From positions 66,636,732-66,700,731 of the forward strand of contig NC_080044.1 of assembly GCF_012489685.1 (NCBI RefSeq): 64,000 nt of DNA. Direction: 5' to 3'. A program made the position numbers and the translations under genes. The notes beneath the pieces were generated by a model, which worked only from the letters and a program-made list of their open reading frames with translations, was not told the DNA's origin and ran no database searches. Source of the stretch: Lotus japonicus. Its lineage: Eukaryota; Streptophyta; Magnoliopsida; Fabales; Fabaceae. Below, in pieces: positions 23,500 through 50,237 of the stretch; the first letter of the stretch is position 1; every line of letters begins with the position of its first letter.

Positions 23500-25246
23500 A
23501 ATATGCCAAAATTTTGCAATAAAGCAGGGAAGGTGTGCTTGGCAAAGGCAGTGCTCACAGCGATTCCTACATACGTTACTCAGACAGTATGGCTACCACG
23601 CAAGACAACTCAATTGATCAATCAGTCGGTGCGGAACTTCATATGGTCTTCTCGCACATCAGATAGAGGGTGGCATTTAGTGGCATGGGATAATGTTCGT
23701 AGAGCAAAGAAGGATGGCGGTCTTGGTGTGAGGGACGCGAGTTTAGCTAATACAGCAGTGCTTGGAAAGACAATTTGGTCCCTTCTTCACTCCCCCCAGA
23801 AACTTTGGGTTCAAGTTCTCTCGCATAAGTACTTGTCTACTCACTCTGTCATGAGTGTTTCTGCTACTCCCTCTGCGTCATCGTTGTGGAAGGGTATTCT
23901 GAAGGCCAGGGATGTGCTTCGCGACGGTTTTGTGTTTAAATTGGGTGCAGGGGAAACTTCGGTTTGGTTTACCGACTGGTGCGAGCGAGGTGCAATGGGT
24001 AGGGAGGTACCGTTTATTAATATTGCGGATACAGCGCTGCAGCTGAGGGATTTAATCCGGGATGGGCACTGGGATTTGAACGCGCTGTACACTCCCATGC
24101 CGCAGGAGTTCCAAGACGCGTTGCATGAGGTCCATCCGAGACTGAATCCAAACTTGCAAGATGTGTGGACTTGGCAACCTTGTCCCACAGGAATGTACTC
24201 TGCTGCTTCAGCGTATTGGTGGCTTAATAAACCAGGTATGGGGCCTCACTTAGTCTATGATTGGAACCGGGTCTGGAAGTTACGGGTGTCGGAGAAAATA
24301 AGGATGTTCATGTGGCAGCTTCTACATGATGCGACTCAAGTTAATGCTCATCGTTATCGCTGTCATCTTTCGCTATCCCCGCCGTGTGTGCGCTGCTCTC
24401 ATGGCATGGAGGATAATTTACATTGCTTGCGTGATTGTCCACATGCCAGGGAGGTGTGGCTTCGGTTTCAAGCTCCAGTTTGGCCAGGTTTCTTCTCCAA
24501 CACGATTCAAACTTGGGTTCAACGTCAGTTGCAGGGTGCTCATGCAACGTTGTTCGCAGCTATCCTTTGGCGTCTTTGGAGATGGCGCAACGAAGCTGTC
24601 CTGGGTGACGGATTGTGGACGGTGCAGTCGGTGTATGAGGCAATAGTTCATGATATGAAGGATTATGCTTCATGTTTGGAGGGTCAGGTATTGCATAATC
24701 TGTTAACAACTGCCAGGGCTAAGTGGTGGAGACCGTCACCTGGTGCAGTTTCGTTAATGGTTGATGGCGCTTACAGCTTGGAACACAACCGAATGGGAAT
24801 GGGAGGTTTAGTTCGTGATGAGGATGGAGTGTGGATAGGCGGATTTTATGCTGGTGCAGGTGGTGGTGATTCTCTGTTGGCAGAAATCCAAGCGCTGCTC
24901 AGGGGATTAAGGTTCAGTTGGAAGAAGAGTTGGAAGAAGGTGAGCTGTGGAGTGGACTGTCTTGAGTTGGTGCAGGCATTAGGGAAGGATAAGTTCCAGT
25001 TTCATAAATATGGGAGTGCGTTGTTGGAAATTCAATTGATGATCTCAAGGGCTTGGGAGGTTTCGATTGCATATGTCCCTCGTGAGGGCAATGCGCCAGC
25101 AGATTGTCTAGCGGGTTTGGGTGCGTCTCTACAGTGTCCAGCTACTGAGCTTGCTGCTCCCCCTAGGGTGGTGTTGCCTCTCCTGTCTATGGACATGGAG
25201 GAGCCTTAGTTTTGTTGTTTAAATTTCATATGTACCAAAAAAAAAA
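23500..25246 (+). mobile_element. L1-type LINE with RNase H, 5' truncated
   Basis: The insertion starts inside the reverse transcriptase/thumb region and ends with an A-run at 25236-25246. It belongs to a different lineage from the LINE at 4147, because it has a C-terminal RNase H domain and unlike flanking sequence. I did not find a convincing target duplication; CATGTT near both ends is too short. The left border is therefore approximate. Confidence 0.85.
23503..25209 (+). pseudogene. LINE ORF2 C-terminal part with zinc finger and RNase H
   Basis: The 568-codon open frame has no internal stop. It starts where L1 ORF2 proteins read NKAGKVCLAKAVLTAIPTYV, downstream of the catalytic YADD, so polymerase activity is lost. 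In order it shows the region after the palm, a zinc-finger block (WKLRVSEKIRMFMWQLLHD, CVRC, HCLRDCPHAREVW; about residues 255-320) and an RNase H fold (VDGAYS, about 420; AEIQALLRGL; VDCLELV; YVPREGNAPADCLA). The first Met is probably fortuitous. The open frame suggests recent arrival, but the product is a fragment. Confidence 0.88.
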
Positions 25247-26254: not shown

Positions 26255-26511
26255 TGTTGGAGATTAACCAGTTAATCATGTAATCAGTTAGGTTAGTTAA
26301 GGTGTTTAGTTAGACTTACTTGATTAGTAAGTGGTTTAGTTTGTTAGTGTGAGGACTTGTGTATAAATAAACTAAAGTGTAAGCACATATTGTCATATTG
26401 AATAAAATCAATTTTTCCCCCAATTTACTTTTGTTCTCTCTCGTGTGTGTGTTGTGCTGTATCTGTTGTGTGTGACTGTGTTGTATCTGTGATAGAACTC
26501 TGAACTTGACA
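26255..26511 (+). repeat. 5' LTR of the copia element
   Basis: The LTR begins TGTTGGAGATTAACC and ends GAACTTGACA. A TATAAATA-like box at about 26364 fits the LTR promoter. It differs from the 3' LTR by about eight substitutions and a 5-bp indel, roughly 3 %. Confidence 0.95.
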
Positions 26512-26512
26512 G

Positions 26513-26525
26513 TGGTATCAAGAGC
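26513..26525 (+). other. copia primer-binding site
   Basis: TGGTATCAAGAGC, one nucleotide after the LTR, matches the usual initiator-Met tRNA primer site TGGTATCAGAGC with one extra A. Confidence 0.85.
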
Positions 26526-27582
26526 TAGACCGATTCTAGGGATCTCGCCGGCGTCACAGCGGTGCGATGGCGAACTCCAACGGTGGCTATGGCGGTTTCG
26601 CCATGACTCTTCCTGTCTTGGACGCGAAGACCAACTACGATCGATGGAAGGTTCAGATGAAGGCGATTCTTGGTTACCAAGAACTCTGGGAGATCGTTCA
26701 GAATGGGTTCCAGGTCGCCGGAGAAGATGCAACCGATGCACAGAAAGCTGCATCTCTTGAATCAAAGAAAAAGGATTGTAAGGCTTTGTTTCTTCTACAT
26801 CAATGTCTCGATCCCAACAATTTTGAGAAGATTTCCAGCGTAGAAACCTCAAAAGAGGCATGGGATAACCTTGAACGAAGCCTTGGTGGTGCAGAGAGGG
26901 TGAAGAAGGTCAAACTTCAAACCATGAGGAGAAAGTACGAGCTGTTGCAGATGGAGGATCAAGAATCAATTTCAGATTACTTCTCCAGAATTCTTTCTCT
27001 CATCAACTTGATGAAGGGATGTGGAGAATCCATGACAGATTTGCAGGTTGTTGAGAAGGTATTAAGAACTCTCACAAGCAGATTTGATCATGTGGTAGTT
27101 GCCATTGAAGAATCGAAAGATCTTGAGAAACTCAAGATTGATGAATTGCAAGGCATGTTGGAGGCACATGAACAACGAATCAAAGAAAGAAGTGATCGCT
27201 CCACTGAACAAGCTTTGCAAGCACAGGCTGGGAAACGTTCCTCTGGGTTCAATGATGGCTCCAAGAAGGGAAAGGAGAAGCTCAAGAAGGATAAGTGGAA
27301 GGGGAATGACAGTTCCAGGCAAGAGAACTTGCGTTCTGATTCTGGTTCCAGTTACCACCGTGGTGAGTCTTCAAATTCACAGAATGACCAAGATTCTTCC
27401 AACAAGAAGGGCAATTATGGTGCAAAGGCAACTGGGCAGAAGAAGAAAGTAGACAGGAAAAGGTTCAATGCTGGAATTGTAAGAATTTTGGCCACTTTGC
27501 TGCTGAGTGTGCCAAGTTCCAGAAAAAGAATAAAGATGCTGAAGTGAGCATGGCTCAGGGTGAGGATTCTGATGGTCTTGAA

Positions 27583-27714
27583 CTGCTCATGGCCATCACA
27601 GAGGATGAGCAAATCACATAGGATGAGCATGATTCTGATGAGCCAGTACTGCTCATGGCTATCACAGAGGATGAGCAAATCACAGAGGATGAGCATGATT
27701 CTGATGAGCCAGTA
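27583..27714 (+). repeat. 66-bp in-frame tandem repeat in gag-pol linker
   Basis: Two 66-bp units, anchored by CTGCTCATGG at 27583, 27649 and 27715, encode acidic 22-residue repeats rich in Glu and Asp between the zinc knuckle and the protease. The premature TAG lies in the first unit; the second unit has GAG at the matching site. Confidence 0.85.
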
Positions 27715-28854
27715 CTGCTCATGGCCACCACGACCACCACAGATGGTGAACATGGATTCTATGGCTCTATGGCTTATGAATTGCTCATGGTCACCACAAA
27801 GGGTGAACATGTTGGAGAGAATGTTTGGTACCTTGACACTGGTTGTTCAAACCATATGTCTGGCCACAAAGATTGGTTCACCAGTCTAGATGAATCTACC
27901 AAAACCAATGTAAGGTTTGCAGATGGAAGCTTCATCATAGCTGAGGGTACTGGAAGGGTTCTGATCAAGAGGAAAGATGGTAAAGAGTCTTACATCTCCA
28001 ATGTTCTGTATGTTCCAAAAATGAAGACAAATCTTCTGAGTTTGGGACAATTGCTTGAAAAGGGCTATGCTATGGAGATGAGGAACAGGCATATGAAGGT
28101 CTTTGATGACAAGGAACAACTGATCATGAAGGTCCCACTATCTCGCAATAGAACTTTCAAAATTTCTATTCAAGTTGGAGATCAGAAATGTCTTGAAGCA
28201 ACTGTGATGACTGATGATTGGATTTGGCATCAAAGGTATGGTCACCTTAACTTCAAGAGTTTAGAGTTACTTAGTAGAACTGATATGGTGAATGGGTTAC
28301 CAAAAATTAAAGCTCCTAGAGGTTTATGTGACAATTGCCTAGCCAGCAAGCAAACTAGGAATTCTTTTGTTCCATTCATACCTTCTAAGACATTGAAGCC
28401 ACTTGAAGTTGTCTATTCAGATGTGTGTGGTCCTTTTGAAGTTGAAACACTTGCTGGAAATAGATATTTTGTAACTTTAATAGATGATTTCACTAGGAAG
28501 TTATGGCTTTACTTTATTAAGAGGAAAGATCAAGTGTTTGAGATGTTCAAGACCTTCAAGGCAATGGCAAAAAAACAGAGTGGTGAATGTCTTAAGAATT
28601 TAAGAACCGATGGGGGTGGAGAATATATCTCTAAGGAATTTCATGAGTTCTGTGACAAGGAAGGGATAACTCATGAGATCATTGCTCCATATACACCACA
28701 GCATAATGGTACTGCTGAGAGGTTCAATAGAACTATTCTGGATATGTCACGAAGCATGTTGAGGACTAGAAGTCTCCCTAAGAAATTTTGGGGAGAAGCT
28801 GCTTCTACTGCTAGTTATATACTCAACAGGTGCCCTACCAAGAGATTAGATGGT

Positions 28855-28859
28855 GTTAC
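28855..28859. repeat. 5-bp target duplication of the nested LTR element (left)
   Basis: GTTAC occurs directly before the left LTR and again directly after the right LTR (35244-35248). Removing the insertion and one copy rejoins the copia reading frame. Confidence 0.95.
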
Positions 28860-30047
28860 TGATAAAGGTTTTTTCCTCATTTTTTTGTACTGCTTTTGGC
28901 TAAACCTTTATGATTCAATCATAGCAAAGCAGATACGGGTTTATCGTCCTCAGAGATTGTGTGAACATCAGTTCCACTAGTTAAACATTGATTTGAGCGG
29001 ATAAAAAGATGTTTGATAAATTGTTTTTGTGATTTTCAATATAAGGAAAGCGGTAAAAGAAGGTTTACAGAGATAACAAAGAAGAACACATATTCAGAAA
29101 TGCATTCACATAATCCTTTGATTGCTTTGAACACAAAGACTTATGTAAAGGTTCGTTTCACTTACGATGTCGAGAGCTATCCACCTAACTATCCCTAGCC
29201 TAGGTGAATCTATCAGTTGGAATTCCTAGACGTAATCCCTTACCATCTAGAAAACCAAAAGGAACATTAAAACTCAAATTCTCTCTCAAAGACATTCACA
29301 ATAACAAATTTATCCTAAGACAAGGTACCCTAGGCTTGCAAATCTCCGTTGTCACCCCGGAAACTCCTGTTAGAACTCAAAACCCCACCTGTCACGTGGA
29401 AGCCCACTATTGTTCCTACCTAAGATAATCTCACCATAAGACAACTAGTTCATTGAGTGGTTTCTCTCTTGAACCGGACCCGCAATTATCTCCCAATCTC
29501 ATGCTAGTCCATAAAAATCTAACACAAATCAATGATACTTGAAGTGTAGAAAGCAAAACTTTAACACACGGCGTGACCTAAGACATAGGCATTCTACTTT
29601 CATTGATCTAAGCATACACCAACTCATATCAACCTCTCGATCTATTTATAAATTAGTGAAGCTCTTTTGATTATCAATTGATTGGTTAGAAGCATGAAGT
29701 ACAAAGAGAAACACCATACATGAAAGATTTCCATTTACATCAATAATTGAGTTTACAACAACCAAAGAACTAAGCTATAACATTCTAGATACAAAAATAG
29801 AAAAGAACATATACAAGAGATAAGAAAGGAAGAGATGAAACCCGAAGAACGGAGACGAATCCACGGCGATGGAAACTTTCTCAAGCTTTCCATAGCCACC
29901 AAGAGGTTGTCACCATGCTCCAAAGCTCCACTCTATCAATTCCTAGCTCAGGGACCCTTCCTCCATGAAGCCCAGCCTCCTCTGAATGTTTTAGGGAGGA
30001 AAAATGGTGAAGAATGGAAGAGATCTGGTGAAAAATCGTGTTCTGGC

Positions 30048-30055
30048 CTTTTATA
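30048..30055 (-). promoter_or_regulatory. TATA box in the 3' LTR
   Basis: TATAAAAG on the minus strand sits about 19 bp downstream, in transcript direction, of the palindrome array. This suggests that the array lies in U3 just upstream of the LTR promoter. Confidence 0.65.
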
Positions 30056-30073
30056 AGGGTCCAAGGCGGTTTG

Positions 30074-30308
30074 GCTCGCTTAAGCGAGCTTGAGATTCGC
30101 TTAAGCGAGAGCCTTTTCTTAACACTGAAGTACTCTGCTCGCTTAAGCGAGCATAAGTCTCGCTTAAGCGAGGGTTCACTTTCCTTCTATGCCACTGAAT
30201 GGCTCGCTTAAGCGAGAAAGAATTCGGCTTAAGCGAGATTGTCTTCCAGAATTGATACCCTCTGCCATATAATTTCGCTTAAGCGAGTAAACATTTGGCT
30301 TAAGCGAA
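30074..30308. promoter_or_regulatory. array of four 21-bp-spaced palindrome pairs (3' LTR)
   Basis: Eight CTTAAG-centred dyads are present. The centres are at 30081.5/30102.5, 30144.5/30165.5, 30209.5/30230.5 and 30280.5/30301.5. The spacing within each pair is exactly 21 bp. The strongest unit is GCTCGCTTAAGCGAGC (30074-30089); weaker ones have one arm changed, such as GGCTTAAGCGAG. Pair-to-pair steps are 63, 65 and 71 bp. The constant two-turn spacing with variable linkers suggests binding sites for a dimeric factor. Function is inferred. Confidence 0.75.
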
Positions 30309-30544
30309 ATTCTTCATTTCTTGGCCTTTTGACATCTTGTGGCACAGATCTTCATAGACTTTCTCCTATCATTGAAAACAAAAGATTAAATGTGAAAAAT
30401 ATAATAATTACTATATTTCTATACTAAAATTAAGTATTTACTAAATCAACTACTTATGGGGATAAAATAATCAACAATGCAAGCATATAGGTCAAATAAG
30501 TGCTTAAAATGATATTTAAAAACACGTAAAATTGACACTTATCA

Positions 30545-30558
30545 ACTCCCCCCAACTT
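30545..30558 (-). other. polypurine tract of the nested element
   Basis: On the minus strand AAGTTGGGGGGAGT directly precedes the TGATAAG start of the 3' LTR. This is the position of the plus-strand primer. A near copy occurs at 31241-31254. Confidence 0.8.
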
Positions 30559-33535
30559 AACACTTTGTTTGTCCTCAAACAAAAGGTAATGACTTTCATT
30601 CAAGCAGACATGGTATCTGAATCAATAAAGCTCAAACTGCATGATTTCTCTATTTTTCAAATAAGTGATCCAAGTCAGAGATGTGATGCCCACAAAAGAA
30701 AACATAACAGTGATACAAATGCACATCCACTCTGAAAATCAATAGGCATACAATCCATTCCTTTCCAACCAGGGATACTCATTCACTCAGCATTTTGTTA
30801 TGTTCAAAGTAAGGCGAGTGTTTCACTCATTTCACTAACTGAATCACATAAATGAATTTTGTTACCCGTCTCCGCAGTTATCAAGGTTGCATGTTCAATC
30901 AAGGATCTCTAAGGTCTTTGAGGGTTGTAATGTGGTTAGGCTTCAAAGAAATTTGGTTTTTCTGGATATGCAAGATACTCAACAAGCTAAGAGAGCAATC
31001 ACAGTTCAAACCATTCACAAATAATAAATCACTCTCATGCTCTTACCAACTCTCTCATTCACCTTTTTCAATTATGCTCACCCTTTCTTTTCTTTCTTTG
31101 TCAATCTCTCTTATTTTCTTTTCTTTTTTTTTCTTTCTCTTTTTTTTCCTTGCTTCTTTTTCATCTTTTTTTCTTTTCACTTTCAAGTATGTACAAATAG
31201 ATTGATACACAAACCACACAAAAATAGCACTATTATCCTTCTCCCCCCAACTTGAATACAACCATATCATGAACAAATGCTCTCTTAACCTATTCAGCTT
31301 AGGTGGGATCATTGTCTTTCTTTTTAAGCTCAAGGTTATAAACAAGAAGAAATCACATTTTTAGGCTCAAAGGGGTAACAATGGAATTTAAATGAAAAAT
31401 GTAGGCTATTTGGCTAAGTAGATATATATATGCAGAACAAAAAAAATGCCTTGATCATTTCCAAGAAATTCCATACAACAATGATAATTTGGAGACTCAA
31501 ACAAAACCAATCATGTAACACAGTGAGGATTCTCTCAGCTCACAAGTGTACAGGCTTCACTCCCTCACATGACTTAGGTTCAAAGCAATCCCTGATTTTC
31601 AAAAATTTCATGTTATGCCTATGAATTACATGTGAATTATACAATCATATCAAATTATGCTATCTTTGAGTGAAAACATCTGATAAACCCTGGAATCAAC
31701 AGTTCAAATCGCATTTTAACACATTCATGCAATTCAATTGATATTTCATCAACCATGCCATATGAAATCAGTCAGATATCAATGAAATCTATCACAAAGT
31801 GTTAATTATTCACATACTAATGTACTAAAAAGAAATTAAAAACAAATGAAAGAAGGACAAAAAGTACTCCCTCGTGATACTTTGCTTTCAGTTCAGGATT
31901 GCTCATCAAACTTCTCACACCCTCCAAGAAAATTGGACTGTCCTCAGGTCAAACAATACCAGCAACAAAAGATTCCTGCTAACAGTCACTTAAAATCAAA
32001 TTAGTCACAAAGAGGTGAAAAAATTTCTGGGGTAGTTCTCGCTTAAGCCATGGTCATTTTTGCTTAAGCCAAAATCTTCACAGAGCCAAACATAGTCAAT
32101 TTCGCTTAAGCCAACAGAATCTCGCTTAAGCGAAATTCTTTGACAGAATCACTGATCTTTCTTACACAGGTCTCGCTTAAGCCAGATAAGTCTTCGCTTA
32201 AGCGAGACTCACTAAACTTCTGCATAATTTTGACAGTTCATAACAGGGGAAATTGCCATCTTTTTACAACCTCATCCCCCAATTTCCATTTCCATCATAA
32301 TTCGACCTTCAAATTCATTCAATTGCATGTGAAACATCAATCTAAACTTGAGAGAAGCTTCAAATTAAACATGCTGTCATTAAGAACATAAGATTCAATT
32401 CAAGTTAATTTGCATGCAATTTTCACAAGTGCCATACCCAAATTTTAATCCTTTCACTTTCTAGGCCTTATAGGTGAGCAAACCTTCTATATACATCAAG
32501 GGAAACATGTGGAGAACTTAAAATCACAAATTCAAGCGCTCAATCTACAATATCAAAATATCACTTCCTAAGTACTAAAACTTTAATGACATGAACTTGA
32601 AACACAACAAACCTAGACACTAGCATACCAAACTACACATACATAATTCAAAGACACAATTACATCAAACCAACACTTATATTAAATAAACATGTTAAAA
32701 TTCAAGAGTTATGGGAAGCAACCTGCATAATTATGCAGAAGTTTACAAAAGGGACTTACTTCTTCACAAAATTCATCCAACCTCATACCTCAAAATGAGC
32801 TAAACTTAGCATCCATTCTTTTCATCATTCCATATGCATGAAAAACACTCTTTTGGACCTGTCTCAAGTCTCAATTGCAGATTGTTAGCATCAAAAGCAC
32901 ATAATCCAATTCACATTCCATTCTACATGCAAATTCAACAAGTCACACCCCCAAATTTTGATTTTATCATATTTCTTTCTTCCAAACTCATTGAACAATC
33001 TCAATATGCTAAATAACACTTGTGAAGCTCATAAAAACTAAACTTTTGGCACAACTTCACTAAATCACATATACTACATAATTTAAAAAGAGAAAACAAG
33101 CACACCAAAACACATGGTTTCCAAAACTCTTGGTTCTATCTTGATTCAAATAACTCAAAAGAGGATTTTAAACATGAAAGCATACAAAGATCATTCAAGA
33201 ACCCAAATTGAGGAATCCTTAGGAAATTTAAAAACAAAAACAAGAGAACAAGAGAAAGAAAACACAAACAACTATGCACAAGACAACACCTATATACATT
33301 ATCCTATGCATCAATTTATGACTAATGAACCTAAATTACATTAAATTCACTAGCTGATTCATTCCAAGACAGGTTCACAGAATTCCAAACCACAAATCAT
33401 GTTATAGTTGATCAGGCTACAACAAGCATTAAGAACAAGAATAAACCAGAGATATTGATACACAAGAACAGCTATGTACACTATTTACAACTCAAATCAA
33501 CATTCCACTAGCTTCACCAACATTCCCAAACACAA
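30559..33535 (-). other. non-coding interior of the nested element
   Basis: No gag, protease, polymerase or integrase similarity is seen on either strand. Visible features are a second polypurine-like stretch (31241-31254), a pyrimidine-rich run (31075-31190, plus strand) and three palindrome pairs (32038-32206). The bulk is AT-rich and unstructured to the eye. Confidence 0.75.
32038..32206. promoter_or_regulatory. three further palindrome pairs in the interior
   Basis: CTTAAG centres lie at 32044.5/32065.5, 32107.5/32127.5 and 32178.5/32199.5, giving spacings of 21, 20 and 21 bp. The arms are TCTCGCTTAAGCCA-like or TCGCTTAAGCGA-like. The pattern is the same as in the LTRs but outside them, so it is not explained by LTR duplication. 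Confidence 0.7.
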
Positions 33536-33553
33536 TCCCCGGCAAAGGCGCCA
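33536..33553 (-). other. primer-binding site of the nested element
   Basis: On the minus strand TGGCGCCTTTGCCGGGGA lies 4 nt inside the 5' LTR. It is close to the TGGCGCCGTTGCCGGGGA type used by plant Tat/Athila-like elements (tRNA-Asp-like, from memory), with one mismatch. It sets the orientation. Confidence 0.8.
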
Positions 33554-33557
33554 AATT

Positions 33558-35243
33558 TGATAAAGGTTTTTTCCTCATTTTTTTTGTACTGCTTTTGGCT
33601 AAACCTTTATGATTAAATCATAGCAAAGCAGATACAGGTTTATCGTCCTCAGGGATTGTGTGAACATCAGTTTCACCAGTTAAACATTGATTTGAGCGGA
33701 TAAAAAGATGTTTGATAAATTGTTTTTGTGATTTTCAATATAAGGAAAGCGGTAAAAGAAGGTTTACAGAGATAACAAAGAAGAACACGTATTCAGAAAT
33801 GCATTCACATAATCCTTTGATTGCTTTGAACACAAAGACTTATGTAAAGGTTCGTTTCACTTACGATGTCGAGAGCTATCCACCTAACTATCCCTAGCCT
33901 AGGTGAATCTATCAGTTGGAATTCCTAGACGTAATCCCTTACCATCTAGAAAACCAAAAGGAACATTAAAACTCAAATTCTCTCTCAAAGACATTCACAA
34001 CAACAAATTTATCCTAATACAAGGTACCCTAGGCTTGCAAATCTCCGTTGTCACCCCGGAAACTCCTGTTAGAACTCAAAACCCCACCTGTCACGTGGAA
34101 GCCCACTATTGTTCCTACCTAAGATAATCTCACCATAAGACAACTAGTTCATTGAGTGGTTTCTCTCTTGAACCGGACCCGCAATTATCTCCCAATCTCA
34201 TGCTAGTCCATAAAAATCTAACACAAATCAATGATACTTGAAGTGTAGAAAGCAAAACTTTAACACACGGCGTGACCTAAGACATAGGCATTCTACTTTC
34301 ATTGATCTAAGCATACACCAACTCATATCAACCTCTCGATCTATTTATAAATTAGTGAAGCTCTTTTGATTATCAATTGATTGGTTAGAAGCATGAAGTA
34401 CAAAGAGAAACACCATACATGAAAGATTTCCATTTACATCAATAATTGAGTTTACAACAACCAAAGAACTAAGCTATAACATTCTAGATACAAAAATAGA
34501 AAAGAACATATACAAGAGATAAGAAAGGAAGAGATGAAACCCGAAGAACGGAGACGAATCCACGGCGATGGAAACTTTCTCAAGCTTTCCATAGCCACCA
34601 AGAGGTTGTCACCATGCTCCAAAGCTCCACTCTATCAATTCCTAGCTCAGGGACCCTTCCTCCATGAAGCCCAGCCTCCTCTGAATGTTTTAGGGAGGAA
34701 AAATGGTGAAGAATGGAAGAGATCTGGTGAAAAATCGTGTTCTGGCCTTTTATAAGGGTCCAAGGCGGTTTGGCTCGCTTAAGCGAGCTTGAGATTCGCT
34801 TAAGCGAGAGCCTTTTCTTAACACTGAAGTACTCTGCTCGCTTAAGCGAGCATAAGTCTCGCTTAAGCGAGGGTTCACTTTCCTTCTATGCCACTGAATG
34901 GCTCGCTTAAGCGAGAAAGAATTCGGCTTAAGCGAGATTGTCTTCCAGAATTGATACCCTCTGCCATATAATTTCTCTTAAGCGAGTAAACATTTGGCTT
35001 AAGCGAAATTCTTCATTTCTTGGCCTTTTGACATCTTGTGGCACAGATCTTCATAGACTTTCTCCTATCATTGAAAACAAAAGATTAAATGTGAAAAATA
35101 TAATAATTACTATATTTCTATACTAAAATTAAGTATTTACTAAATCAACTACTTATGGGGATAAAATAATCAACAATGCAAGCATATAGGTCAAATAAGT
35201 GCTTAAAATGATATTTAAAAACACGTAAAATTGGCACTTATCA
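33558..35243 (-). repeat. 5' LTR of the nested element
   Basis: This LTR is nearly identical to 28860-30544. It has the same TATA box (34747-34754) and the same palindrome array (about 34773-35007). One palindrome has changed from TTCGCTTAAG to TTCTCTTAAG. As the 5' LTR it would drive transcription of the element. Confidence 0.95.
34773..35007. promoter_or_regulatory. array of four 21-bp-spaced palindrome pairs (5' LTR)
   Basis: This is the copy of the 30074-30308 array, shifted by 4699 bp and keeping the 21-bp spacing. It lies about 19 bp upstream of the TATAAAAG box (34747-34754, minus strand) in the LTR that would act as promoter. Confidence 0.75.
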
Positions 35244-37252
35244 GTTACTCCTGAGGAAGCTTGGACTGGAAGAAAACCCAGTGTTAGGCATTTGAGGATT
35301 TTTGGCTCAGTTTGCTTCAGACATGTTCCAGATGCAAAGAGAAAGAAGCTTGATGATAGAGGACAGCTTCTAATTCTCTTAGGCTATCATTCAACTGGTG
35401 CTTATAGGGCTTTTAATCCTGTAACACAAAGTGTAGTGATCAGCAGAGACCTTCAATTTGATGAACATAGAAGCTTTGACTGGAATTCAGGTCAGAATGA
35501 ACAGTTGCAGAAAACTGTGCTTCAACTTGATCCTCTTGATGTTCTGACTGAAAGTGAATCTGCTCCAGTTGCTCCTAATGATCATGTTCAGAATCCGAGA
35601 TCACAGAGACAAAGGCAGTTGCCTCAGAGGTTCAGAGACTATGAAGTTTTTCCTGACTCTATGATAAATCCAGAAGGTGATCTAGTGCATATGGCACTGT
35701 TAGCAGAAATGGAGCCAGTAGATTTGAGTCAAGCCTTGAAAGAACCTCAGTGGATTGCTGTAATGACTGAAGAATTGAACTCTATTGAAAGAAACAACAC
35801 CTGGGAGCTGACTACTCTACCTGAGAAGAAGAAATCAATTGCTGTTAGATGGGTCTTCAAGGTTAAAATGAAGCCAAATGGAGAACTGGCCAAATACAAG
35901 GCCAGACTTGTTGCAAAAGGGTTTCTTCAGAAGCATGGATTGGACTATGATGAAGTGTTTGCACCAGTGGCTCGTCTTAATACTGTTAGATTAGTGGTTG
36001 CACTTGCAAGCTTCAGAAATTGGTCTTTGCATCAAATGGATGTGAAGTCCGCTTTTCTAAATGGACCACTAGATGAAGAAGTGTATGTTTGCCAACCTCC
36101 AGGGTTTGAGATTAAAGGCAAGGAGGATAAAGTGTACAGATTACACAAGCACCTCGGGCATGGAATAAGAGGATTGACTCTTTTCTGGTGAAACTGGGTT
36201 TTGTTAAAAGCACTACTGAATTTGGCATCTACATTAAGGGGGTGAGAATTGACAACTTGTTAATTGTGTGCTTATATGTAGATGACTTATTGATCACTGG
36301 AAGTAGTGAAGAGCAGATCAGGTTGTTTAAAAGAGAAATGCAAGCTGAATTTGAGATGACAGATTTAGGAAATTTGTCCTACTTTCTTGGCATTGAGTTT
36401 GTGAAAACTGCTGCTGGTATCTTGATGCACCAGAGGAAGTATTCCACTAATGTGCTCAAGAGGTTTCATATGTTTGATTGCAATCCAGTTGAAACTCCAG
36501 TTGAGACAGGACTTGTGCTTACCAATGATGAAGTTATTGACAAGTCAGTTGAGCCAGTAGACAAGACACTGTACAGACAGATGGTTGGTTCTCTCAGATA
36601 CATTTGCAATACTCGACCTGACTTGGCTTATGGTGTTGGATTGGTGAGTAGATATATGGAGAATCCTAGTCATACACACTTGTTGGCAGTCAAGAGATTG
36701 TTAAGATACTTGAAAGGCACTCTTGATTTTGGTTTAATGTTTCCAGCAGCACATGACAATATGAGACAAGAGTTGATGGGATTTTCTGATTCAGACTGGT
36801 GTGGTGATAAGTCAGATAGGAAGTCCACAACTGGTTACATTTTCAAGTTTGGTGAAGCTCCAGTTAGCTGGTGTTCTAAGAAACAGCAAGTGGTTGCTTT
36901 GTCTAGTTGTGAGGCTGAGTATATAGCTGCATGTATGGGAAGTTGTCAAGCTTTATGGCTGCAAACTCTCCTTGAAGACTTGAAAATCATTGGTTCTGGT
37001 CCTGTGACACTGATTGTAGACAATAAATCTGCAATTAATCTTGCAAAGAATCTTGTAGCTCACGGGAAGAGTAAGCATATTGAGACCAGATTCCACTTCC
37101 TTAGGGATCAAGTGAGCAAGAATAAATTGAGGTTGCAATTCTGCAGGACAGGTGAACAAGTTGCTGATGTGCTTACTAAAGCATTGAAGAAGGAAGCTTT
37201 CTTGAAGTTTAGGAAGAGCTTGGGGGTTCGGAGTTTGAACCAAACTGATTAA
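35244..37252 (+). pseudogene. copia integrase end, reverse transcriptase and RNase H
   Basis: The copia frame resumes right after the nested element (LRIFGSVCFRHVPDAKRKKL). The reverse transcriptase begins near 35770 (NNTWELTTLP, KARLVAKGF, QMDVKSAFLNG), and the catalytic YVDDLLITG is at about 36276. RNase H follows (GFSDSDWCGD, SSCEAEYIA, VDNKSA) and ends with TKAL near 37180. At about 36149 a short deletion of about 22 nt removes a conserved stretch and shifts the frame, so the second half is read from about 36188 in another frame. The enzyme is not expected to work. Confidence 0.93.
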
Positions 37253-37259
37253 GGAGGTG
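37251..37259 (+). other. copia polypurine tract
   Basis: AAGGAGGTG directly precedes the TGTTGGAG start of the 3' LTR. Confidence 0.75.
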
Positions 37260-37511
37260 TGTTGGAGATTAACCAGTTAATCATGTAATCAGTTAGGTTA
37301 GTTAAGGTGTTTAGTTAGACTTACTTGTAAGTGGTTTAGTTTGTTAGTGTTAGGACTTGTGTATAAATAGACTAAAGTGTAAGCACCTATTGTCATATTG
37401 AATAAAATCAGTTTTTCCCCCAATTCACTTCTGTTCTCTCTCATGTGTGTGTTGTGATGTATCTGTTGTGTGTGACTGTGTTGTATCTGTGATAGAACTC
37501 TGAACTTGACA
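37260..37511 (+). repeat. 3' LTR of the copia element
   Basis: The 252-bp copy of the 5' LTR lacks about 5 bp near 37326. It ends GAACTTGACA before the TACTT target copy. Confidence 0.95.
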
Positions 37512-49694: not shown

Positions 49695-50237
49695 GGCTTA
49701 ATTGCAACTTTGGTCCCCGACGTTTACCAATGCCACGATTTTGGTCCCCCACCTAATTTAATTACATGAATGGTCCCCGACGTTGTAGGACGTGTGCAAC
49801 GTTAGTTCTACCGTTTATTTCTTAATGGAGGAGGCTTACGTGGACGTCCAATTTGAGAGAGAAAGGAGGTATGAGGAGAGAGGGAAGCACGTGAGTATCA
49901 CGTGACCCTTATTTGAACCCATTATACCCAAACCCCTGACCTCCCTAGAACGAAGAAGGTAACACGATTTAGATCCCTAGGGTTTCAGATTTGGGTATAA
50001 TGGGTTCATATAAGGTTCACGTGAGTTCACGTGATACTCACGTGCTTCCCTCTCTCCTCATACCTCATTTTTCTCTCCAACTAGACGTCCACGTAAGCCT
50101 CCTCAATTAAGAAATAAACGGTAGGACTAACGTTGCACACGACCTACAACGTCAGGGACCATCAATGTAATTAAATTAGGTGGGGGACCAAAATCGTGGC
50201 ATTGGTAAACGTCGGGGACCAAAGTTGTAATTAAGCC
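49695..50237. mobile_element. 543-bp Mutator-like MITE with long inverted repeats
   Basis: The 9-bp duplication AAGCTTTTA at 49686-49694 and 50238-50246 is perfect. The element starts GGCTTAATTGCAACTTTGG, and the right end is its reverse complement. The inverted arms are each over 200 bp long and nearly complete, leaving only a short centre. Both arms carry CACGTG (G-box) palindromes near 49889 and 50038. It lies between the convergent PIG-B and GNAT genes. Confidence 0.92.

Follow-up and report, generated by a model that had tools for sequence, protein, structure and literature searches.

The question raised by this locus is why an LTR retroelement should carry short palindromes in pairs, set 21 bp apart and ending next to its TATA box, and whether this arrangement is read by protein, folds as nucleic acid or was left behind by duplication. 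The analysed window is a stretch of 64 kb (36% GC, no N), C4:66636732-66700731, from a genome of 553.7 Mb in 65 contigs. With a probability of roughly 0.58, the array is taken here to be a cis-regulatory module of Athila-like LTR elements that offers candidate sites for paired sequence-specific dimers, a reading built from sequence comparison.

The element and its arrays

The arrays belong to an LTR retroelement on the minus strand that is nested in an older Ty1/copia element on the plus strand. The features of the window referred to in the text are the following.

28860..35243, minus strand: non-autonomous LTR retroelement (group A), Athila-like by its primer-binding site; delimited by LTR pair, ends and ORFs
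33558..35243, minus strand: 5' LTR, 1686 bp, TGATAAGTG...CCTTTATCA, 99.35% identity to the 3' LTR
28860..30544, minus strand: 3' LTR, 1685 bp, same TGATAAGTG...CCTTTATCA ends
28855..28859, unstranded: target-site duplication GTTAC on one flank, from the sequence
35244..35248, unstranded: target-site duplication GTTAC on the opposite flank, from the sequence
33536..33553, minus strand: primer-binding site, separated from the LTR end by 4 nt and complementary to plant tRNA-Asp at 17 of 18 positions
30545..30556, minus strand: polypurine tract adjoining the 3' LTR, from the sequence
30048..30055, minus strand: TATA box TATAAAAG of the 3' LTR, from the sequence
34747..34754, minus strand: TATA box TATAAAAG in the 5' LTR, from which the element would be driven, from the sequence
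30075..30308, unstranded: U3 array of the 3' LTR, four pairs of GCTTAAGC cores, CTTAAG at 30079/30100, 30142/30163, 30207/30228 and 30278/30299
34774..35007, unstranded: U3 array of the 5' LTR, same eight CTTAAG and distances, CTTAAG starts 34778 to 34998 (span 34778-35003)
32038..32206, unstranded: internal array, three pairs, CTTAAG at 32042/32063, 32105/32125 and 32176/32197
26255..37511, plus strand: older Ty1/copia element, nest of the window element, with terminal repeats at 26255-26511 and 37260-37511 and gag, integrase and RT domains

The two LTRs of the window element differ at 11 positions, and the TATA box starts at LTR position 490. The element was inserted in opposite orientation into the Ty1/copia element, splitting the integrase from the reverse-transcriptase region. 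Since the ORF listing gave no stop-to-stop frame longer than 117 aa in its 3-kb internal region, and since its primer site matches tRNA-Asp, the element was classed as non-autonomous and Athila-like; its lack of coding capacity makes a placement based on reverse transcriptase impossible. The primer sites of the window element and of the related group B, two copies of which carry TGGCGCCGTTGCCGGGG at this position, were assigned with what we take to be the plant tRNA-Asp sequence. A 241-aa frame in one group B copy gave no Pfam match. A known RNA family was ruled out as the identity of the array, as the search of 28600-35500 against Rfam returned 0 matches at gathering score. Elsewhere in the window, an open frame at 23500-25209 carries zf-RVT and RNase H-like (RVT_3) domains like those of plant LINE-type elements, and a 540-bp stretch at 49695-50237 is 87% identical to its own reverse complement and thus forms an imperfect inverted repeat.

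The U3 array occupies LTR positions 241-461, upstream of the TATA box, and in the 3' LTR its eight CTTAAG (30079-30304) follow each other at distances of 21, 42, 21, 44, 21, 50 and 21 bp. An earlier sequence-only reading had reported four LTR pairs at exactly 21 bp, and the same four pairs were recovered in both LTR copies, one core of the eight in the 5' LTR (CTTAAG at 34977) having T for its first G. The pair-to-pair distances of 63, 65 and 71 bp given in that reading were reproduced on recomputation, and the minus-strand array, said to end about 19 bp before the TATA box, does so, with 19 nt from the last 14-mer to TATAAAAG and 22 nt from the nearest 8-bp core to the TATA box. The exactness of the spacing applies to the LTR pairs and does not extend to the internal array, in which six sites at distances of 21, 42, 20, 51 and 21 bp give within-pair spacings of 21, 20 and 21 bp. 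That arms had changed while spacing was kept was also borne out, the linkers within pairs differing in letters while their length is nearly constant. However, the 14-mer CTCGCTTAAGCGAG proposed as the core unit had to be given up: among the 14 distinct sites counted over the 3' LTR and the internal array of the window, only 4 have it intact, whereas GCTTAAGC is intact in 14/14 and all changes fall in the arms. The 14-bp palindrome was rejected as the whole unit because its arms are as variable as the spacer.

Two simple accounts of the internal array were tried and rejected. When the sites were masked, it did not align with the U3 array as an inverted homologous copy (p 0.34, against 0.07 in the same orientation), and a second promoter was not indicated, no TATA[AT]A being present on either strand in about 240 bp downstream in the two stretches checked.

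Genome-wide spacing and recurrence in diverged groups

Pairs of GCTTAAGC were counted throughout the host genome (553.7 Mb) by spacing. Exactly 21 bp was found in 675 of the 748 pairs spaced by 13-29 bp; a further 60 lay at 13-20 bp (46 at 20 bp, two at 19 bp and one each at 18 and 15 bp among the 50 listed) and 13 at 22-29 bp (10 at 22 bp and one each at 26, 28 and 29 bp). The reversed pattern, used as a control in the same genome, gave 0 pairs at 21, 13-20 and 22-29 bp, the single sites numbering 8,492 for GCTTAAGC and 7,635 for the reversed word. From the 8,492 single sites about 0.13 pairs at 21 bp are expected by chance, and the observed pairs are about 5,000 times commoner than single sites predict, with the reservation that copies of a family are not independent and 675 therefore overstates the number of independent events. 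For CGCTTAAGCG, 566 sites were counted genome-wide vs 98 for its reverse. Within the window, CGCTTAAGCG with at most 2 mismatches was matched 30 times vs 7.4 expected, and of 200,000 trials in which eight sites were scattered at random over the span of the array, 2 gave four identical pair distances. Chance was rejected as the origin of the paired sites on the strength of the window excess, the placement trials and the genome counts. The genome-wide peak at 21 bp that the sequence-only reading had proposed to look for is present, and it is seen in several diverged groups.

The groups were first looked at in 31 stretches surrounding 50 listed CGCTTAAGCG sites on contig C1 (first 34 Mb). Cores less than 80 bp apart in the 31 stretches were separated by 21 bp in 51 cases, by 20 bp in five and by 22 bp in one, and otherwise by 38 to 71 bp; 12 of the 31 stretches hold single or far-apart sites only. 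In a further set of loci, L167-L186, the share of 20-bp pairs is inflated, as they were picked from pairs at 15-20 bp. Group A members are 84-97% identical to the window element in longer pieces, and group B is about 72-79% identical to group A in the longer aligned pieces. Two putative LTRs forming group C are 71-84% identical to the group B LTR, in pieces, and one further putative LTR, array D (L185), has distances of 20, 51, 21, 42 and 21 bp and shares 71 bp of alignable sequence with group C. Pairs at 20-22 bp are kept in groups A, B and C and in array D although the spacers differ. LTR arrays are present in both group A and group B, and the order LTR array, internal array, LTR array was found in the group B elements at C1:3.006-3.012 Mb and C1:23.875-23.881 Mb. 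One core of group C reads GCTTAAGT, and in array D 4/6 cores are intact and 2/6 imperfect. The distance from the TATA box to the nearest core was 22 in group A (window), 18 in two group B copies and 20 and 21 in two group C copies, with one B copy (L134) left out and with a value of 78 for an A copy (L142) that has lost its first pair. By eye, group B contains a 70-bp duplication of a pair plus spacer and lacks part of the A array, which indicates that pair units are gained and lost whole.

What is constrained

Groups A and B were compared over two aligned regions of the array (3 A sequences and 8 or 7 B sequences). The core was 100% identical in 24+24 columns, against identities in the two regions of 27%/73% for spacers, 11%/72% for linkers and 63%/57% for arms. 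This comparison is biased towards intact cores, as the B loci were each found via one exact site, and it left out A copies with lost sites or a cut array (L112, L130, L135, L136 and L142) as well as B copies of the same kind (L123, L129 and L131, and L116 also in the second region). The bias was avoided by searching with 229 bp of U3 beyond the array, which yielded 310 candidates, of which 40 were scored and 38 lay outside the window; 24 of these 38 were taken (20 plus 4), and 26 group A sequences were analysed.

All eight CTTAAG stood at unchanged distances in 14 of the first 20 copies selected by flank. Over 24 of the 26 sequences, the mean pairwise difference was lowest in the core (0.015) and higher in spacers (0.032), arms (0.038) and linkers (0.040), and variable non-CpG columns made up 4/50 in the core vs 37/154 elsewhere (Fisher p 0.014), a sample that excludes the badly aligned copies L203 and L207. 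With L203 and L207 included (26 copies), core and spacer were equal at 0.061 and the column test gave p 0.19. The within-pair distance was 21 bp in 88/88 pairs of the 24 sequences, whereas between-pair distances vary. In the window, 15 CpG lie in the U3 sites and 0 in 122 bp of U3 spacer and linker, and the observed/expected CpG ratio was 0.12 in the internal region outside sites and 0.53 in the LTR downstream of the TATA box. As far as these alignments go, constraint acts on the 8-bp core and on the distance between cores, and the arms of the 14-bp palindrome vary like the spacer. Taken together, the core and spacer differences, the distances and the CpG counts point to selection on core and spacing in transposing lines, followed by neutral decay.

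A proposed reading by protein

The preferred interpretation may be set out as follows. The word that matters for function would be GCTTAAGC, an 8-bp palindrome, and it would work in twos, at a distance of 21 bp (range 20-22). As this distance amounts to two helical turns, one face of the DNA could accommodate a pair of protein dimers or a single tetramer. U3 would hold three or four of these units, the nearest at about 18-22 bp from the TATA box, and the internal region three more. A protein of the host or of the element would bind the pairs, perhaps cooperatively, and would thereby drive or de-repress transcription. The enhancer in U3 envisaged by the sequence-only reading agrees with this in its position next to the TATA box and was too narrow a placement, as internal arrays occur in groups A and B.

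Several observations count against a regulatory role: the equal variation of core and spacer when all 26 copies are used, the imperfect cores in groups C and D, the weaker CpG depletion downstream of the TATA box (0.53), the omission of lost-site copies from a comparison of A and B in which B had been found via the exact site, and the fact that viral and bacterial contigs with no relation to the element also contain GCTTAAGC pairs at 21-22 bp. A promoter-proximal enhancer also leaves unexplained an internal array with no TATA[AT]A within about 240 bp, and the weakly complementary outer arms described below are not predicted by a reading based purely on the core.

A bolder version would make the pairs the address label of a trans-acting system common to the diverged Athila-like groups, in which one tetrameric protein, host-derived or element-encoded, reads the 21-bp pairs in U3 and internally, switches the set on or shields it from silencing, and so lets non-coding copies be co-mobilised; this is regarded as improbable on present comparisons. 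An element-encoded binder would be the first sequence-addressed trans system for LTR elements known to us. If the binder were a host factor, it would reveal what makes these elements active. Under either assumption, the almost rigid pair of 8-bp palindromes is a ready bait for the protein controlling this group of plant retroelements.

Alternative explanations

The main rival is a role in hairpins or small RNAs. Each pair would be an inverted repeat that folds, in RNA or single-stranded DNA, into a hairpin with a stem of 8-14 bp and a loop of 7-13 nt. Such hairpins would act in the RNA life cycle of the element or simply template small RNAs of the host, a role proposed for the palindromes of maize Sireviruses, clusters of which are reported to carry an excess of small RNAs (PMC10760457); we consider this unlikely, while ranking it ahead of the other alternatives. 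The arrays fold far more stably than shuffles as RNA (z -6.2 for the U3 array and -5.5 for the internal array), and DNA folding of seven single pairs gave z -2.6 to -7.4. However, such strong folding is expected because any palindrome pair folds well. More telling is the complementarity of the outer arms of partner sites, which exceeded that of re-paired arms with p 0.0006 over 20 clusters when array membership was ignored, and with p 0.034-0.037 (16 pairs) or 0.038-0.059 (26 clusters) when re-pairing was confined to one array. For the seven window pairs, p was 0.019 or 0.041 under two scores, rising to 0.067 to 0.13 when either of two similar pairs was removed and to 0.25 for the LTR pairs alone, so that the signal in the window is weak. 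Inner arms, and the two arms of each single site, showed no excess of complementarity over re-paired arms. As outer arms match while inner and own arms do not, the unit looks like the pair, with a dyad at its centre, and not the single palindrome.

This outer-arm signal keeps the hairpin explanation alive. Against it, the core is unchanged in the 14 distinct window sites, which therefore offer no compensatory change, conservation between A and B does not extend to the arms, and the outer and inner arms of several group B pairs match by one base only; a hairpin would also have no need for 21 bp over 16 or 26 bp. An invariant window core without compensatory change fits recognition of sequence better than a stem, and together with the unconserved arms it speaks more for a protein reading two copies of GCTTAAGC than for a hairpin.

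The arrays might instead bind a protein of autonomous relatives that lifts silencing or marks copies for mobilisation, with non-autonomous copies riding along. The precedent is found in VANDALs, which are DNA transposons. Their VANC target motif YAGTATTAY is arrayed in several non-coding regions of the element, and the arrays, of one orientation and dense, evolve by tandem gain and loss and are the target of a protein that the element itself encodes (Hosaka et al. 2017, PMC5735166, as far as the available text goes). The window-type motif is likewise arrayed in several non-coding regions of the same element, one core is common to groups whose LTRs align only partly, and whole units appear, by eye, to have been gained and lost in group B; the motifs of VANC21 are arranged as tandem repeats in non-coding regions (PMC5735166, same portion). 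Unlike the dense VANC motifs of one orientation, those of the window are palindromic and paired at 21 bp, and their binder is putative. A host factor accounts for the same facts, and this explanation is judged rather improbable, clearly below the hairpin.

Least probable of the alternatives that were weighed, by a small step, is that the array is a neutral remnant of tandem duplication, its spacing inherited and not selected. Spacing is indeed inherited among copies within a family, and in the full set of 26 group A copies the core varies as much as the spacer. Plain tandem duplication, which the sequence-only reading had named as refuting its proposal, can be seen by eye for some group B pairs in the 70-bp duplication of a pair plus spacer. 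It fits the window less well, since the U3 spacers there resemble each other no more than shuffled sequences do (p 0.13, 0.29 and 0.35), with one nominal exception (p 0.0095) among ten spacer comparisons. The failure of the two window arrays to align once their sites are masked (p 0.07 and 0.34), the persistence of the cores, and of their distances of 20-22 bp, across groups A to C and in array D, and the variation of between-pair distances in the very same arrays also argue against a remnant.

Relation to known systems

In Tnt1 and Tto1, U3 contains enhancer boxes that are repeated ahead of the TATA box; these boxes are tandem and belong to Ty1/copia elements. The window array resembles them in placing repeated boxes before the TATA box and differs in both of these respects. 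The closest likeness is to the palindromic repeated motifs (RMs) of Sireviruses, also Ty1/copia elements. According to the parts of the report available, these occur in at least 8 copies per element, in clusters that mostly start 200-400 bp after the PPT/LTR junction and upstream of the TATA box and that border CpG islands, with copies in the internal region as well in nine elements and a CGG-CCG core signature in 12/13 motifs (Bousios et al. 2010, PMC2829016). The window element likewise has at least 8 palindromic sites (8 per LTR plus 6 internal), and its array lies at LTR positions 241-461 with the TATA box at 490. In contrast to the Sirevirus motifs, its core GCTTAAGC is without the CGG-CCG signature, and the element itself is non-coding, with an Athila-type tRNA-Asp primer site. 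Its sites are moreover paired at 21 bp, a fixed pair spacing not being mentioned in the portions of PMC2829016 consulted. Measured against those portions, palindrome arrays upstream of the TATA box are already known from Sireviruses, and what is new is a lineage that is probably another one, the other motif and the fixed paired spacing; such arrays would then not be confined to Sireviruses.

Legume Athila/Calypso/Diaspora elements are described, in the part of the source available, as having a tRNA-Asp primer site 5 bp beyond the LTR and ends TG...CA (PMC1142308). The window element is similar, with LTR ends TG...CA and a primer site matching tRNA-Asp at 17/18 bases after 4 nt. The strings 'palindrom' and 'TATA' are absent from the main text of the Diaspora paper (PMC1142308). 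Soybean Gmr9 carries minisatellites of other lengths, and their motif differs as far as sequences are given in the accessible part of the report (PMC3305785). Literature searches for CGCTTAAGCG or longer forms gave no plant-retroelement title among the matches listed, and those for paired 21-bp palindromes in LTRs gave no paper by title among the matches listed, which is no proof of absence.

Paired sites in viral and bacterial contigs

Viral and prokaryote contigs shared with the window element only matches of 21-34 nt (best E 5.8e-4), none of the 107 loci giving a match at E 1e-4. Among 38 viral loci that had been selected for spacings of 19-23 bp, GCTTAAGC pairs stood at 22 bp in 17 cases and at 21 bp in 12. 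The viral and bacterial pairs at 21-22 bp look like tandem repeats, and some bacterial bins contain tandem arrays. A Treponema bin (L039 5243-5418 and L072 332-507) has arrays of CGCTTAAGCG-like repeats at distances of 21 and 42 bp; BLAST at E 1e-4 did not align them with the plant element, and they are probably an unrelated bacterial tandem repeat. Ruminant-gut Bacteroidaceae bins (L040, L043, L044, L046, L056, L058, L062, L065, L073 and L074) have short GCTTAAGC arrays in which the spacings are 21-22 and 43-44 bp and the arms and linkers are peculiar to these bins; in L062, the one stretch for which ORFs were listed, no frame of at least 60 aa covers the array. Clustered GCTTAAGC sites at 14-22 bp are also present in contigs of Candidatus Staskawiczbacteria (L045 5702-6139 and L061 3539-3603).
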